The notes under the pieces: model-generated
Database searches by the model: none
The model's input: the letters and a program-made list of their open reading frames with translations, nothing else
What the model was told of the DNA's origin: nothing
Assembly: GCF_902498185.1 (NCBI RefSeq)
Contig: NZ_CABVIX010000001.1
Span: forward strand, 248,001 to 312,000
Reading direction: 5' to 3'
Length of the DNA stretch: 64,000 nucleotides
DNA from: Pseudomonas fluorescens
Lineage (GTDB): Bacteria; Pseudomonadota; Gammaproteobacteria; Pseudomonadales; Pseudomonadaceae
Translations under genes and position numbers: made by a program
In this document: positions 1 through 38,217 of the stretch, piece by piece
Numbering within the stretch: position 1 is the stretch's first letter
Layout: the number at the start of each line of letters is the position of its first letter

Positions 1-147
1 CGTGGGGGCGCACTGCGCTACATCGATTCGATCGGGGTTGCCGAGTTCGTCGCCCTGGCCGACCGGTACGCCGATCTGGGGCCGCTGTACCAGCCCACCG
101 CGAAGCTGCGTGAAATGGCCAAGAACGGCCAGCGCTTCTTCGGCTAA
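1..147 (+). CDS. fadB: FadB C-terminus (fatty acid oxidation complex alpha subunit), 5' cut by window edge
   Basis: The first 48 codons read in frame from base 1 to a TAA at 145-147 and end in the typical FadB tail ([13 protein letters not shown]). FadB carries enoyl-CoA hydratase and 3-hydroxyacyl-CoA dehydrogenase activities of beta-oxidation and forms a complex with FadA. FadA starts 31 bases later, so the two form the usual fadBA operon. The identification rests on this tail and on the neighbour; the rest of the gene is outside the window. Confidence 0.9.
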
Positions 148-33924: not shown

Positions 33925-34218
33925 ATGGCTGAATTAAATTTTGACGCGGCGGTTCTTGTTGCTCGTTCAAATATTGAAAAGCTGGTTCCAAAAGCGAAGA
34001 ATGTGACGCTTGAAGAGGCCATGATCTCTTCCGATGGAAAGCTCTACGAGATTACATTTAGTTACGATCTTGAGCGGGAAAATAGCGCCAGCGGAGCCGC
34101 TGTTGACAATATCGCGAAGCTTGCGAGCCTGATGGGGCGGAGAAGGGAGTACAAAGTTTTTCTGGTTGATGCGGGAAATAATGAATTTAGGGGGTTCAGG
34201 GCCTACAAGGAGAAGTAG
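33925..34218 (+). CDS. Hypothetical partner of PIN-domain gene
   Basis: The 97-residue soluble protein begins MAELNFDAAVLVARSNIEKL. I do not recognise the family. The second half is beta-rich and basic (LMGRRREYKVFLVDAGNNEFRGFRAYKEK). Codon use is AT-richer than the core genes, a sign of transfer. It ends 2 bases before the PIN gene, so the two form one transcript. By position it could be the antitoxin of a PIN toxin, but it lacks the ribbon-helix-helix or AbrB fold usual for such antitoxins. Confidence 0.7.
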   Translation: MAELNFDAAVLVARSNIEKLVPKAKNVTLEEAMISSDGKLYEITFSYDLERENSASGAAVDNIAKLASLMGRRREYKVFLVDAGNNEFRGFRAYKEK

Positions 34219-34220
34219 TC

Positions 34221-34697
34221 TTGAGTAGCAAGGGGCTGATTATTGACACCAATCTCCTTCTACTGCTTGTGATAGGGTCTGTAGAAGAGGGCAGGCATAT
34301 TCGAAACTCCAACAGGCTTAATGCCTATAGCAAGGACGACTTTGATGTCGTTGCCCAGTTTATGGGTAAATTTAATGATGTCTTTATCACCCCCTATATT
34401 GCTGCGGAGGTGTCGAATCTGATTGACTTGAATGGATATGCCAGGGACTCGGCGTTTCAGATTGTCAGGGTTTTGTTGGATGAGTTCAAGCAGGTAGAAG
34501 TTGATCTATCGAAGGACGCCGCTTCTGACTCATTTTTGATTTATGGCTTGACGGATAATTCGCTGATAGATTTGGTTTCGGATTATACGGTCATCACCAA
34601 TGACGCAAGGTTGCTTGGGCCGCTGTTTGCGGCTAGCCCGGACAACGTTATTCCCTTTGAATTTGCGAAGAGTCTGGTAGACACCGGTAGATCTTAG
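34221..34697 (+). CDS. PIN-domain protein, putative ribonuclease
   Basis: The 158-residue protein shows a full PIN acidic set: Asp9 in GLIIDTNLLLLL, Glu63 in AAEVSNL, Asp112 in GLTDNSLIDL and Asp128 in VITNDARLLG. All four metal ligands appear present, so nuclease activity is plausible. The start is TTG at 34221, 2 bases after the previous stop; no ATG fits upstream. GC is low relative to neighbours. It may be a toxin, or an RNA-processing enzyme of a mobile defence cassette. The pair is not one I recognise as named. Confidence 0.72.
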   Translation: MSSKGLIIDTNLLLLLVIGSVEEGRHIRNSNRLNAYSKDDFDVVAQFMGKFNDVFITPYIAAEVSNLIDLNGYARDSAFQIVRVLLDEFKQVEVDLSKDAASDSFLIYGLTDNSLIDLVSDYTVITNDARLLGPLFAASPDNVIPFEFAKSLVDTGRS

Positions 34698-34749
34698 GCT
34701 CTGTACGAAATCTTGAGAAACAAGGCGAAGCCACAAACTTCCTTAATCT

Positions 34750-34932
34750 CTTGAAGACACTCTGGTCCAGGCGTCCGAATATCTTGTCCGTGCGCTCACG
34801 GTGGCGCAGCAGGTGATCTTGTCGAGCCCCAAACCTAGTGAACAGGTTCTCGCGCTGGCGACGATGCATGAAATCGATGCGGCGCATGGGCTTGTGGAAC
34901 TGGCGTTGAGCCAGGTGCAAGCACGGCACTGA
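34750..34932 (+). pseudogene. 5'-truncated DUF6124-family gene copy
   Basis: In frame it reads LEDTLVQASEYLVRALTVAQ and on to LSQVQARH-stop. This is nearly the same as the last 60 residues of the intact gene at 35556-35789. The first 17 codons, the start and the leader are missing, replaced by unrelated sequence from 34698. Homology continues about 50 bases past the stop. This is the remnant of a tandem duplication. Confidence 0.85.
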
Positions 34933-35369
34933 TAGCTAACGAAGATGGGCCGGTCTTGGCTCGGGATCGGCTTCGTTCTCTGGAAACTGGAGACGAAGGC
35001 ATATTTGTGTGAGCGTGTGGCTAAGATTGCGGCTGGTGCGGCGAGGATAAGGCTTCAGGAGAGGGCAGCGGCACTGGAGCAAAGCCAGCATTTAGCAAAC
35101 CTCAGAAAGAAGGAGACCCCGCAGAACGGGGTCCTCTCAATGCCTAGTCTCATTACCGTTTCTGTATCCCGGGCTTGGAGGTTCCTAGGGCTGCCGGGAC
35201 AGCTGACCAAGCGCTTGCTCCATAGACCAGGTCCTAATAAACGTAAAAAGTTCAGACTTCGCCTATATCGTGTAGGACATTTCCGAATTATCCTGCTATC
35301 GCCTTCAGGCGCTTGCGGTGGTCTTGTTGCGGGTCTAGTCTCGGCCGGTCGTTGGAAATACAACGACTC
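34933..35369 (+). other. Decayed spacer between DUF6124 copies
   Basis: The first 50 bases match the spacer that follows the intact DUF6124 gene (GGGCCGGTC, GGGATCGGCTTCGTT, AAGGCATAT). The DUF3077 start codon expected next is lost. A frame of 147 codons crosses the region but looks accidental. A small hairpin ACCCCG/CGGGGT lies at 35116-35132, and GTCGTTG/CAACGAC (35348-35367) lies just before the leader. Confidence 0.55.
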
Positions 35370-35528
35370 GGTTTTGACAGACCGATAGGAACCAAACGCA
35401 TGCGCGACCGTGTTATGGCGGCTGTGCGTGGGGCACTTCGGTGCGCCGGTCTTTTCTCGTTTGTTCCCCGGTCTGTCAACCCGCGTACAGCTGCCACCTT
35501 TCTGTTTGACAGCAGGCTTGTGGCAGCT
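35370..35528 (+). ncRNA. Structured leader (candidate RNA switch) of DUF6124 gene, copy 1
   Basis: Arm A GGTTTTGACAGACC (35370-35383) can pair with A' GGTCTGTCAACC (35470-35481). Arm B TGGCGGCTGTGCGTGGG (35416-35432) pairs over all 17 bases with B' CCCGCGTACAGCTGCCA (35480-35496), using three G-U pairs. Between them is a GCAC-TTCG-GTGC tetraloop hairpin (35433-35444). B' can also pair with a third arm: AGCTGCCAC (35489-35497) with GTGGCAGCT (35520-35528), 28 bases before the start codon. The A-B-A'-B' order allows a pseudoknot or alternative folds. Arms recur in copy 2. That it acts as RNA is inference. Confidence 0.55.
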
Positions 35529-35555
35529 CCACCTTGAACATACGAGAGCTACGCC

Positions 35556-35789
35556 ATGTTGAAGATCGTTCCCGATCCTCCCCGTTTCAACAATTCTCCT
35601 CAAACTCTTGAAGACACGCTGGTCCAGGCGTCCGAATACCTTGTCTGTGCGCTCACTGTGGCGCAGCAGGTGATTTTGGCGAGCCCCAAACCTAGCGAGC
35701 AGGTTCTCGCGCTGGCGACGATGCATGAAATCGATGCGGCGCATGGACTTGTGGAGCTGGCGCTAAGCCAGGTTCAAGCGCGGCATTGA
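35556..35789 (+). CDS. DUF6124-family small protein
   Basis: The 77-residue protein begins MLKIVPDPPRFNNSPQ and has a long helical body (EDTLVQASEYLVCALTVAQQVILASPKPSEQVLALATMHEI in part). It belongs to a small family seen in multiple copies in pseudomonad genomes, usually beside DUF3077 genes; no function is known. GAGAG precedes the ATG by 7 bases. The structured leader ends 27 bases upstream. A truncated copy lies at 34750. The DUF3077 gene follows after 71 bases. Confidence 0.8.
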   Translation: MLKIVPDPPRFNNSPQTLEDTLVQASEYLVCALTVAQQVILASPKPSEQVLALATMHEIDAAHGLVELALSQVQARH

Positions 35790-35860
35790 ATAGCTGACGA
35801 TGGCGGGCCGGTCCTGGTTCGGGATCGGCTTCGTTGTCTGGAATTTTCAGAGGAAGGCAT

Positions 35861-36136
35861 ATGAACGGCAATTCGCGAGACAAGACGAGGACGGCAGGGA
35901 AGGTGACATTTTGTAAGGGCGAAGGCGCGCAGCGGCTCTTTCGCGTGGAGCCGGGGATCGCAAGCGACTACGCGCTCGAGCAGGCCTCCATGCTGATGGG
36001 CTGCGTCCGGGAACTGACCTTCATTGGGGTGATGGACAATGAGAGCAACTCGATGTGGGCTGCGCACTATCTGAGTTCGATGGCCAAGGCGTTGGTTGAT
36101 GACGTGGAAATTGGCGCGCGTGACCGAGGCCGGTGA
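35861..36136 (+). CDS. DUF3077-family small protein
   Basis: The 91-residue protein matches the DUF3077 pattern: TFCKGEGAQRLFRVEPGIAS, then DYALEQASMLMGCVRELTF and a C-terminal helix (MWAAHYLSSMAKALVDDVEI). DUF3077 proteins occur in many copies in fluorescent pseudomonads and have no known role. The ATG at 35861 has AGAGGAAGG upstream and is preferred to a TTG at 35834. It forms a two-gene module with the DUF6124 gene. A terminator-like hairpin follows at 36221. Confidence 0.85.
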   Translation: MNGNSRDKTRTAGKVTFCKGEGAQRLFRVEPGIASDYALEQASMLMGCVRELTFIGVMDNESNSMWAAHYLSSMAKALVDDVEIGARDRGR

Positions 36137-36220
36137 TAGGCGTTGGATGGATTTACGGGCATTAGACACAGAGCCTAGGCTGGCCCTGGACGGCCGTTCG
36201 GCACAAACCACATCCCATCA

Positions 36221-36243
36221 AAAGCCTGCTGAATGCGGGCTTT
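36221..36243. terminator. Bidirectional terminator between DUF3077 and XRE genes
   Basis: 9-bp stem AAAGCCTGC/GCGGGCTTT with one G-T pair, a TGAAT loop and TTTT after it; A-tract on the other side. It separates convergent genes. Confidence 0.75.
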
Positions 36244-36254
36244 TCGGCTATCGA

Positions 36255-36506
36255 TCAATTCAATGCAGCAAGTACATGCTCAGGGTTGCTGTGGATCGCT
36301 TGGAGCAGCGCCCGGGCTGGCCCTTCGGGTTCGCGGCGTCCTTGCTCCCAATTCCGTAGAGTTCCCACTGCTACATCAATGCGTTTAGCAAACATGGCTT
36401 GGGAGAGCCCAGTTGCTTGGCGGATCTTCTTGACCTGAACCGCGTCAACGTGGAATTCACGCGATGGCTGACGCTCACCACGATCGATCTCATCTATCTG
36501 GGTCAT
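36255..36506 (-). CDS. XRE-family antitoxin-like regulator, probably frameshifted at its 5' end
   Basis: The 83-residue protein has a Cro/C1 helix-turn-helix (VKKIRQATGLSQAMFAKRIDVAVGTLRNWEQ in part) typical of NadS/HigA-type antitoxins and ends NPEHVLAALN. Relatives begin about 12 residues earlier. Those residues (MEKNLLDRLVEA) are present at 36541-36506 but one base out of frame: GAAGCATGA puts a stop exactly where the frame should continue. So a one-base deletion seems to have cut the normal start, leaving the internal ATG. No toxin gene lies next to it; the upstream space holds leader copy 2. Confidence 0.7.
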   Translation of the reverse strand: MTQIDEIDRGERQPSREFHVDAVQVKKIRQATGLSQAMFAKRIDVAVGTLRNWEQGRREPEGPARALLQAIHSNPEHVLAALN

Positions 36507-36583
36507 GCTTCCACAAGACGATCGAGGAGATTCTTTTCCATTATTTCCACCCTTCTCGACCAGCCGTTGCTCATCAGCGACCG

Positions 36584-36709
36584 GGTTTTGACAGACCTTT
36601 CAAATGGAATCCCTCATAGCTTCCGTGTTCATGGCGGCTGTGCGTGGGGCACCTCAGGATGCGCCGGGTTTCTTCGTTTACCAGTCTGTCAACCCGCGTA
36701 CAGCTGCCA
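36584..36709 (+). ncRNA. Structured leader copy 2, orphan
   Basis: Arms A (36584-36597), B (36632-36648), A' (36683-36694) and B' (36693-36709) are present in the same order as copy 1. A, B and B' are identical over 14, 17 and 17 bases; A' differs only at its first base. The sequence between the arms differs. The third arm B'' and the following gene are missing; an IS5-family remnant begins within 45 bases. This looks like a leader that lost its gene. Confidence 0.5.
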
Positions 36710-36751
36710 CCTATTGGGCGGATTCAACCGGTCGTCGCAACACTGGATTGG

Positions 36752-36871
36752 CACCAGCCCTGACGTGGCATCGACGCCAATGTGGGCCTTCATTCCGAAG
36801 TGCCACTGATTACCTTTTTTAGCCTGATGCATCTCGGGATCACGCTTGCCTTCTCGGTTCTTGACCGAGGG
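36752..36871 (-). pseudogene. IS5-family transposase fragment
   Basis: On the minus strand, 36871 to 36752 read [15 protein letters not shown] then [19 protein letters not shown] and TSGLV. The motif [16 protein letters not shown] is diagnostic of IS5-group transposases. Both ends of the gene are missing, so it is a dead internal fragment. It directly follows leader copy 2 and probably destroyed the module there. The rest of 36710-36985 shows no gene. Confidence 0.85.
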
Positions 36872-36985
36872 CGGGCTATTTTTGCAGCGGCTCCCTAGTT
36901 GTGGGCGACCATCAAGGCATCCTCCAGCGCACCGACTACATCTTGTTTTAAATGGCTGGGCTACATCCAGCCCGCCAATAAAGCT

Positions 36986-37029
36986 AAGCCTGTTATATAT
37001 TCCATAACGGAATATATAACAGGCTTTTT
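36986..37029. terminator. Perfect 18-bp AT-rich inverted repeat with T-run
   Basis: AAGCCTGTTATATATTCC (36986-37003) and its exact complement (37009-37026) flank a 5-base loop ATAAC, followed by TTTTTATTATTTT. It works as a strong terminator on paper, yet no intact gene ends just before it. The composition is far from that of the core genome. It could instead be an operator or an old element end ahead of the AraC gene. Confidence 0.7.
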
Positions 37030-37146
37030 ATTATTTTAGTTTTTTTGGCATAGGCCGCTAAATGATCGCTAAGCGGGTGCACCGTCCGACGGCTAATAGT
37101 TGGATCTGAGCGTTCCCGACGAGATTAATCTGAATCGGAGCCCCCC

Positions 37147-38217
37147 TTGCCTGCAATCGACACCATCGCTACCCGGGCTCAGGCCATCGCCCGCGCCCTG
37201 GAAGCTCAAGGCATCGCCGCTGCGCCGTTGTTGCGCGAAGCCGGGATCAGTCATTGCAACCTGCATGACTCCAACCAACGCATCGCACTTGCGTCCATGA
37301 GCGCGCTTTGGCGTGCTGCGCAGCGCATCACTGCTGACGAGTGCTTCGGTTTACGTGTTGCCCAGCATAGTTATCCGACCGACTTTCATGGGTTGTGTTT
37401 CGCCGCGCAAAGCAGCACATCCGTGGGCGAGGCACTTGAGCGTGGCGTACGGTTTGCGCCGGTGATCAGCACATCAACGGCTATCAGCCTGGAACGTAGC
37501 CCCGGCACCACTCGGTTGATCTATGCGCTGGCTGCGGGCGCAGAGGTCGAGCAGGTCGCTACCGAGGCTTCGATTGCTTACGCGGTGAATTTCAGTCGTC
37601 AGACCTGGGTCGACCTGCCGGTCGTGCAGAGCGTCCAACTGACTCGTCCTGCCCCTAAAGATCCAGAGCGCTGGGCACGCTTGATCGGTTGCCCGGTAAA
37701 TTATGGGGCCAGTGAGAACGCCATTGAGTACAGCAACCGTTGGCTTGATGTCCCGCTTGGTACCGCCAACCCTGAAGTCGCCAAAGGCTTGGACGGCGTA
37801 CTAAGCAATTACTTAGAGCGGCAAACTCGGCTTGACCTGCCCGAGCGCGTGCGCGCACTCATCGGCCATTACTTGCCAATAGGCGAAGTACAGCAAAGCC
37901 AGATTGCTGCCGAATTGGGCATGAGCGCGCGAAACATGCATCGGCACTTGCTCAAGCACGACACCAGTTTCAAGGCACTGCTTGATGATTGCCGCAGGCA
38001 ACTTGCCTTTAGTTACCTGCGTCAGAGTCAGGCCTCGATCACCGAGATCTGCTACCGGCTGGGCTTCAATGAGCAGAGTAGCTTCAATCGCGCGTTCCGT
38101 CGCTGGACGGGAGCGAGCCCCGGCAAATGGCGGCGCGATGGCGCTTGTTCGCTTCCGGAGCCATCGTCGGCTTACCTCGCTTCTGACCTGGATTGGCCAC
38201 TCGCCATTGCGGTTTGA
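37147..38217 (+). CDS. AraC-family transcriptional regulator
   Basis: The 356-residue protein has an N-terminal arabinose-binding-type domain (residues 1-200) and a C-terminal double HTH (QQSQIAAELGMSARNMHRHL, then SITEICYRLGFNEQSSFNRAFRRWTGASPG in part). It begins at a TTG at 37147 (MPAIDTIATRAQ) with GGAG 7 bases upstream; no ATG fits. It lies directly before a porin-amidase-MFS set in the same direction and is the likely activator of that set, sensing its substrate. Confidence 0.88.
   Translation: MPAIDTIATRAQAIARALEAQGIAAAPLLREAGISHCNLHDSNQRIALASMSALWRAAQRITADECFGLRVAQHSYPTDFHGLCFAAQSSTSVGEALERGVRFAPVISTSTAISLERSPGTTRLIYALAAGAEVEQVATEASIAYAVNFSRQTWVDLPVVQSVQLTRPAPKDPERWARLIGCPVNYGASENAIEYSNRWLDVPLGTANPEVAKGLDGVLSNYLERQTRLDLPERVRALIGHYLPIGEVQQSQIAAELGMSARNMHRHLLKHDTSFKALLDDCRRQLAFSYLRQSQASITEICYRLGFNEQSSFNRAFRRWTGASPGKWRRDGACSLPEPSSAYLASDLDWPLAIAV

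Follow-up and report, generated by a model that had tools for sequence, protein, structure and literature searches.

In type I toxin-antitoxin systems, a small protein is silenced by an antisense RNA. The module described here, located in a 64,000-nucleotide stretch of Pseudomonas fluorescens DNA (the window), would work in a similar manner, except that its RNA is encoded on the same strand as the gene and presumably within the same transcript. The immI region of phages P1 and P7 resembles the window locus in its RNA family, in its order (a1-b1-c4-a2-b2-icd) and in the position of b2 directly before the first gene. The C4 RNA, icd and ant of P1 are described in the available part of PMC8198154, and the P1 record notes repression of icd/ant translation; our Rfam scan detects C4 in both P1 and P4. 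In P1, icd and ant are the controlled genes and stand under the C1 repressor, whereas the window carries a DUF6124-like gene and a DUF3077 gene in a chromosomal module with dozens of copies. Neither icd/ant nor phage replication genes lie behind C4 in the window, which places it outside the phage immunity systems of P1 and P4.

The satellite phage P4, where C4 scores 74.9 bits in the Rfam scan, has a CI RNA with seqA and seqC that is comparable to the window RNA: in both, the antisense RNA stems from the leader transcript itself and has targets to either side. The P4 replication genes are controlled by premature termination (available part of PMC4825925); for the window copy, no leader terminator is predicted. 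The IsrK-orf45-anrP locus of Gifsy-1 consists of a leader, a terminator, a read-through RNA complementary to the leader and a small gene, an order similar to that of many relatives of the window module. IsrK is the terminated leader, and the stable RNA complementary to it arises from read-through; an action of the read-through RNA on the terminator was considered by the authors, with one co-expression experiment that did not fit (both from the part of PMC4825925 available). The short IsrK activates its target in Gifsy-1, whereas the window locus has neither an IsrK match (RF01394) nor a Rho-independent leader terminator, and is thus not an IsrK locus.

Many expressed and processed Group 1 C4-like sRNAs are described for A. 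baumannii in the accessible text of PMC5320573. They resemble those of the window genome in being chromosomal, numerous and variable in the target loop. That portion of the report names no proven target gene, whereas here each C4 usually precedes its own target and the pairing covaries. C4 and c4-a1b1 are also listed in PMC2864571, and C4 and isrK in Xylella in PMC12189769, in the parts of these papers at hand. In a literature search of mainly open-access papers, none was found that ties C4 to DUF6124 or DUF3077, and nothing was found on DUF6124 itself. The RNA family is already known; less ordinary is that genomes of one genus each carry dozens of coded modules that appear to silence themselves.

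Leader RNA and genes of the module

Three matches in the whole-window Rfam scan exceed the curated gathering cut-offs (45 bits for RF01695, 46.7 bits for RF03163). The C4 antisense RNA (RF01695) is found at 35411-35501 (71.2 bits, E = 7.1e-12) and again at 36627-36714 (70.6 bits, E = 1e-11), and the c4-a1b1 target (RF03163) at 35335-35388 (49.9 bits). By covariance model score, the window thus contains members of both families. The original prediction, made from the letters of the DNA, had described a repeated structured leader for which it knew of no named motif; this last point has to be abandoned. It had also missed b1, the promoter-like sequence and the pairing between a loop and the Shine-Dalgarno (SD) region, in addition to the Rfam identity. 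The elements follow each other from 5' to 3' in the order promoter-like sequence, leader hairpin, a1, b1, C4, a2, anti-SD arm, b2/SD, ORF1 and DUF3077:

35313-35341 (+): promoter-like sequence TTGCGG-17-TAGTCT, by pattern match
35347-35367 (+): 5' leader hairpin, inside the RF03163 match 35335-35388
35369-35384 (+): a1, first target of C4 loop a' (arm A of the original prediction), CGGTTTTGACAGACCG; RF03163 match and duplex with a'
35388-35398 (+): b1, first target of C4 loop b'; duplex of -10.9 kcal/mol and family-wide b'-b1 covariation
35411-35501 (+): C4 antisense RNA; RF01695, 71.2 bits, and covariation
35416-35432/35480-35496 (+): C4 stem P1 (arms B/B'); 17 of 17 positions paired, 3 of them G-U
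35433-35444 (+): C4 stem P2, the UUCG hairpin
35455-35466 (+): C4 loop b', in the P3 loop
35469-35481 (+): C4 loop a' (arm A'), CGGTCTGTCAACC
35505-35513 (+): a2, second target of loop a'; duplex of -10.6 kcal/mol
35520-35530 (+): anti-SD arm GTGGCAGCTCC, which includes B'' and is able to base-pair with the SD region
35536-35547 (+): b2, the key together with the SD region, targeted by loop b'; 11 of 12 positions pair with 35455-35466
35556-35789 (+): ORF1, 77 aa, DUF6124-like, predicted helical hairpin
35861-36136 (+): ORF2, DUF3077 protein, from the ATG at 35861; a TTG occurs further upstream in the frame, at 35834

The pairings noticed originally are all present. Besides the full-length B/B' stem and the UUCG hairpin, these are the A/A' pairing, now the a1/a' duplex (-22.3 kcal/mol with a few flanking bases), and the complementarity of B'' (GTGGCAGCT, 35520-35528), which extends over 9 bases to 35489-35497, that is, the 3' part of B' plus one base. 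B'' is placed between C4 and the start codon at 35556. The anti-SD arm that contains it is, at the window copy, a variant GCTC/GAGC instead of CTCC...GGAG.

The A-A' and B-B' complementarities cross ahead of a gene, and had been taken as a sign of a pseudoknot or RNA switch acting in cis. By comparison with the P1 record, the crossing A/A' pairing and the loop/SD pairing are instead those by which an antisense RNA binds its targets. A pseudoknot acting in cis, or a riboswitch for a metabolite, is highly improbable in this leader: a known antisense RNA and the family of its targets are both matched strongly, and C4 is annotated in phage P1 as a separate 77-nt RNA. Moreover, the loop bases vary provided that two distant target sites change with them, a freedom that a ligand pocket would hardly permit.

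The description of the genes as a DUF6124/DUF3077 module stands for ORF2, which matches DUF3077 (PF11275) with 62.7 bits against a cut-off of 21. The 77-aa ORF1 has no direct Pfam match to DUF6124 (PF19619), and its assignment comes from profile-profile comparison with DUF6124 members only (hhalign, 97.4%). The same method gives 91.1% for the DUF6124 profile against that of DUF3077; a direct homology of the window ORF1 family to DUF3077 is weak (12.9%), and the MNRYM family is not supported as a DUF3077 homologue (0.8%). The AF2 model of ORF1 is a two-helix hairpin (mean pLDDT 84.7), with which a PDB structure search returned nothing below E 0.44. A PADLOC search gave no match for ORF1 or ORF2 at E 0.01.

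Among 104 distinct first proteins behind C4, Pfam (E 0.01) assigns 22 to DUF6124, 18 to DUF3077 and 9 to Bro-N, and no further family. A family of ∼52 aa makes up 22 of the 104 in our alignment (ORF1 of L003, of L062 and of 20 others); 21 of its 22 loci have a leader hairpin and T-run, and the one member tested had no PHROG match. A Bro-N/antirepressor-like first gene is seen at L060 and, by likeness, at L020, L023 and L108, which echoes ant of phage P1.

Covariation and pairing between loops and targets

The own-genome set comprises all 28 C4s reported from 150 scored candidates among 1473 first-look candidates. In the alignment of its 27 distinct sequences, 93.7% of the cells are paired, compared with 35.5-41% in slid controls, and all three stems (P1, P2 and P3) are supported. 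Double-sided changes occur at 14 of the 27 pairs, and none of 500 shuffles was as good. A covariation test had been suggested in the original prediction; its reading as a regulatory RNA is supported, and the arms covary.

The layout around the RNA is recurrent as well. Of 117 loci, 77 show the pattern TTG[AC]NN-16..18-TANNNT in the corresponding zone, where 0.4 would be expected from shuffles. In 55 of 108, the stretch from C4 to the start codon contains a CTCC...GGAG arm (shuffles, 1.0); the 89 loci from other Pseudomonas genomes in these comparisons are among the best-scoring C4s and are biased towards the consensus.

Covariation also extends to the targets. The P3 loop (b') contains CCU (anti-SD) in 78 of the 108 loci that have a following gene, with 66 scorable. 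When the five bases after CCU are compared with the five before the AGG of the next SD, 91, 98, 96, 89 and 91% are paired (45 distinct combinations), against a mean of 41-46% and a maximum of 71% for shuffled partners (1000 shuffles). The three positions beyond this five-base key do not rise above the shuffle maximum. The corresponding key between b' and b1 is weaker, with 88, 76, 76, 78 and 63% paired (41 combinations), each position being above its own shuffle maximum (b1 shuffles overall: mean 40-47%, maximum 73%).

Duplex energies lead to a similar result. Over the 108 loci, b'-b2 duplexes average -14.4 kcal/mol with the cognate partner, compared with -8.4 when it is non-cognate and -8.8 when it is shuffled. 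The cognate b'-b2 duplex is better than 90% of the non-cognate ones in 98 loci and better than all of them in 46. The same 90% mark is passed by b'-b1 in 54, a'-a1 in 74 and a'-a2 in 26 of the 108 loci and, outside Pseudomonas, by 16 of 25 b'-b2 and 9 of 25 b'-b1 duplexes. As in C4 systems, the loops are thus complementary to a2 and b2 at the ribosome binding site of the next gene, strongly for b'-b2 and more weakly for a'-a2.

The window loop lacks the common CCU and has the variant UCUCGUUUGUUC against GAACAUACGAGA. Its b'-b2 duplex (-15.1 kcal/mol) is better than with every non-cognate target tested. For b'-b1, 7.5% of the non-cognate leaders are equally good; a'-a2 is weakly specific (23% of non-cognate targets equally good), and a'-a1 is not specific (80% of non-cognate leaders equally good).

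Within the own genome, a pairing matrix was calculated for 26 of the 28 C4s, omitting L045 (no gene) and L057 (doubtful start). Cognate duplexes average -13.9 kcal/mol, compared with -8.3 for the others, and none of 20000 random target assignments of these 26 loci reached the observed total energy. The own target ranks first for 15 of the 26 C4s, and for 9 no other target comes within 1 kcal/mol; for L049 and L053, the own target ranks only 11th, and one key is common to L043 (the window module) and L044. Insulation between keys within this genome is therefore partial.

There are 21 paralog pairs with a protein identity of 75% or more. Their C4 sequences are on average 88% identical outside P3 and 61% identical in the P3 loop, and two pairs with identical proteins (L041/L053 and L047/L056) have different keys. 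Since a change in the loop has to be matched at both b1 and b2, this divergence hints at selection for difference among the keys of paralogs.

These pairings also bear on whether the repeat could be an element of the DNA, for instance a transposition end or a REP-type repeat, rather than a transcribed RNA. Such an element would fit the large number of copies scattered over each genome and the remains of a transposase close to the second copy. It is nevertheless extremely improbable, because the copies recur on the same strand before genes, covary with the SD region, keep G-U pairs in their stems and have the promoter pattern in register.

Leader terminator and proposed regulation

A hairpin followed by a T-run lies between a1 and C4 in 51 of the 117 Pseudomonas loci, compared with 33 of 2770 control segments. 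Outside Pseudomonas, a looser rule finds a terminator-like element in 24 of 26 loci (control, 33 of 799). In the own genome, 3 of 28 C4 loci have a leader terminator and 25 do not; the window copy, which shows no hairpin and T-run before C4 by the rule of the 117-locus count, is among the latter. Among the terminator-bearing leaders, 45 with a recognisable b1 were folded with this 8-nt site masked; the predicted terminator probability is then 0.89, against 0.50 unmasked and 0.48 for a random block. The probability rises by more than 0.1 in 40 of the 45 and falls in one, with random blocks raising it in 14. A larger mask, which covers too much of the leader, changes the value from 0.39 to 0.79 over 63 loci (50 up, 4 down). 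In many relatives, masking of b1 is thus predicted to favour the leader terminator. The window copy has no such terminator, and early termination is therefore unsupported there.

A terminated leader could also reverse or mix the sign of regulation, if the short leader RNA (a1b1) acted in trans as a C4 sponge or as an opener of structure; the module would then be an activatable switch. In Gifsy-1, translation of orf45-anrP is activated by the short IsrK, while the stable RNA STnc1160 derives from read-through (PMC4825925, available part), so that the net sign at the window could differ. An RF01394 isrK match overlaps c4-a1b1 in phage PAJU2 and another stands in front of C4 in P4 (Rfam scan), and an element able to yield a short leader RNA is present in the 51 terminator-bearing loci of the 117. 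At the window, however, there is neither an RF01394 match nor, by the rule of that count, a terminator, so no short leader RNA is predicted; we regard the switch as an unlikely, but not negligible, alternative.

The region 35313-36136 is probably an operon that silences itself by means of a C4 antisense RNA, which would block translation of the mRNA that contains it. A single promoter would give rise to a transcript containing a1b1, C4, a2b2, ORF1 (DUF6124-like) and DUF3077, from which C4 would be excised, possibly through cutting by RNase P. On that mRNA, a2 would be bound by loop a' of the released RNA and b2 by loop b', which would cover the SD region and leave ORF1 untranslated. That b' over the SD blocks the ribosome on ORF1 is suggested by the covariation together with the P1 record of icd/ant translation repression. 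At the 5' end of newly made transcripts, C4 would bind a1b1 as well, which should favour early termination in the terminator-bearing relatives; the window copy would keep mainly the ribosome block. The direction of regulation in this scheme is an inference, and control of the next gene, as predicted originally, is most likely. The silenced genes may be phage-derived cargo or defence functions that stay off until C4 is lost or outnumbered.

Family membership, the covariation of arms and of key and lock, and the recurrent operon layout are computational results, as is, at the level of prediction, the terminator switch in relatives. DUF6124 and DUF3077, which are uncharacterised, gain a likely regulator, and breaking one loop should turn the gene on. 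The results further indicate that, throughout one genus, an RNA known from phage immunity has become a chromosomal system of many copies whose target code can be read.

Distribution and genomic surroundings

C4 was found in 184 of 199 sampled Pseudomonas genomes, in 183 of them above the cut-off, no more than 20 candidates being scored for each. A sample of the whole class has it in 18 of 274 genomes including the own genome, or 17 of 273 without it, with 1-6 copies elsewhere. The own genome has at least 28 copies (150 of 1473 first-look candidates scored), and five relatives have at least 42, 41, 43, 22 and 27 (up to 150 candidates scored in each).

The expected recurrence before DUF6124 and DUF3077 genes is borne out. 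In the own genome, 18 of 19 DUF3077 matches lie 336-470 bp behind a same-strand C4, the lone exception being a weak match with two stops; both DUF6124 matches above the cut-off follow a C4, and a third, below the cut-off, does not. In the five relatives, for which 150 of 175 C4s are listed, 113 of 148 DUF6124 matches are within 500 bp behind a listed C4 and 35 have no listed C4 nearby. The same distance holds for 12 of the 18 strongest DUF3077 matches there and not for the other 6, and 125 of the 150 listed C4s have a DUF6124 or DUF3077 gene next. In a 1.5 Mb genome of another family (G459, contig C9, 1700-3092), four C4s stand in a row with starts 354-598 bp apart.

The module is also carried by mobile elements. 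In IMG/VR, 95 viral stretches (80 kept) encode relatives of DUF6124 and 5 encode a relative of the window protein; C4 stands in front at all 20 loci scanned of these 85. The exact a2+b2 pattern of the window has 0 matches in IMG/VR. A phage tail chaperone gene is near the module in the two viral contigs looked at. Phage phiAH14b, with integrase, AlpA and primase, carries C4, and a P. putida plasmid has a1b1, C4, a small gene and DUF3077. The module would thus seem to be phage cargo that became dispersed among chromosomes. At L171 (3495-4253), on one of the two viral contigs with the tail chaperone gene, a protein with AbiJ_NTD5 and Abi_C domains is encoded between a C4-led DUF6124-like gene pair and a phage tail gene, and the site is a possible cargo hotspot.

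A broader role can be proposed tentatively, as something possible but not probable. Each genome would hold 20-40 C4-silenced cassettes whose keys, commonly CCU plus five bases, are selected to differ among paralogs; near-identical silent defence or interference genes of phage origin, belonging to the DUF6124/DUF3077 group, could then be kept off and released separately, and incoming phages or plasmids with the same key would be silenced on entry.

The surroundings of the window module contain decayed copies, as follows:

34740-34985 (+): decayed duplicate of ORF1 together with the sequence that follows it, 89.9% identical to 35597-35843 over 247 alignment columns
36550-36714 (+): second, decayed copy of a1b1 and C4; a1b1 19 bits (below 46.7), C4 70.6 bits
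36716-36958 (-): transposase remnant directly behind the second C4; DDE_Tnp_1, E 0.0012, 19.1 bits (cut-off 23)

The second copy had been recognised in the original prediction by its two 17-base arms, which are indeed unchanged, with different sequence between them. Its weak a1b1 (36550-36602, 19 bits) appears in a permissive scan of 34500-37200. No matching gene was found behind this C4, and the transposase remnant may have cut its target gene off. Regulation of ORF1 by the second C4 is unlikely, as its b' pairs with the window b2 at just -7.1 kcal/mol; its best predicted target in the own genome is that of L047 (-12.1 kcal/mol). The ORF1 copy at 34740-34985, where the whole-window and permissive Rfam scans gave no C4 match, is a decayed tandem duplicate.

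Such remains (a C4 lacking its target gene, a broken duplicate of ORF1 and part of a transposase), together with the occurrence of the module in viral contigs, two of them with it beside a phage tail gene, might suggest that the whole locus is a decaying prophage relic without present function. This is improbable: the window copy is intact, with promoter-like sequence, a1b1, C4, a2b2 and two open frames, keys and locks covary, and C4 persists in the 184 of 199 Pseudomonas genomes. In addition, five of seven neighbouring frames tested have ordinary chromosomal matches (transaldolase, dihydrouridine synthase (Dus), AraC, OprB and amidase) and two have none.

Two adjacent small frames, 33925-34218 and 34221-34697, have no match in Pfam (E 0.05) or PADLOC; the latter looks PIN-like, by eye only. 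A small HTH_3 regulator similar to the NadS/MqsA type is encoded at 36255-36506 (-), with a NadS score of 51.1 bits against a cut-off of 60.
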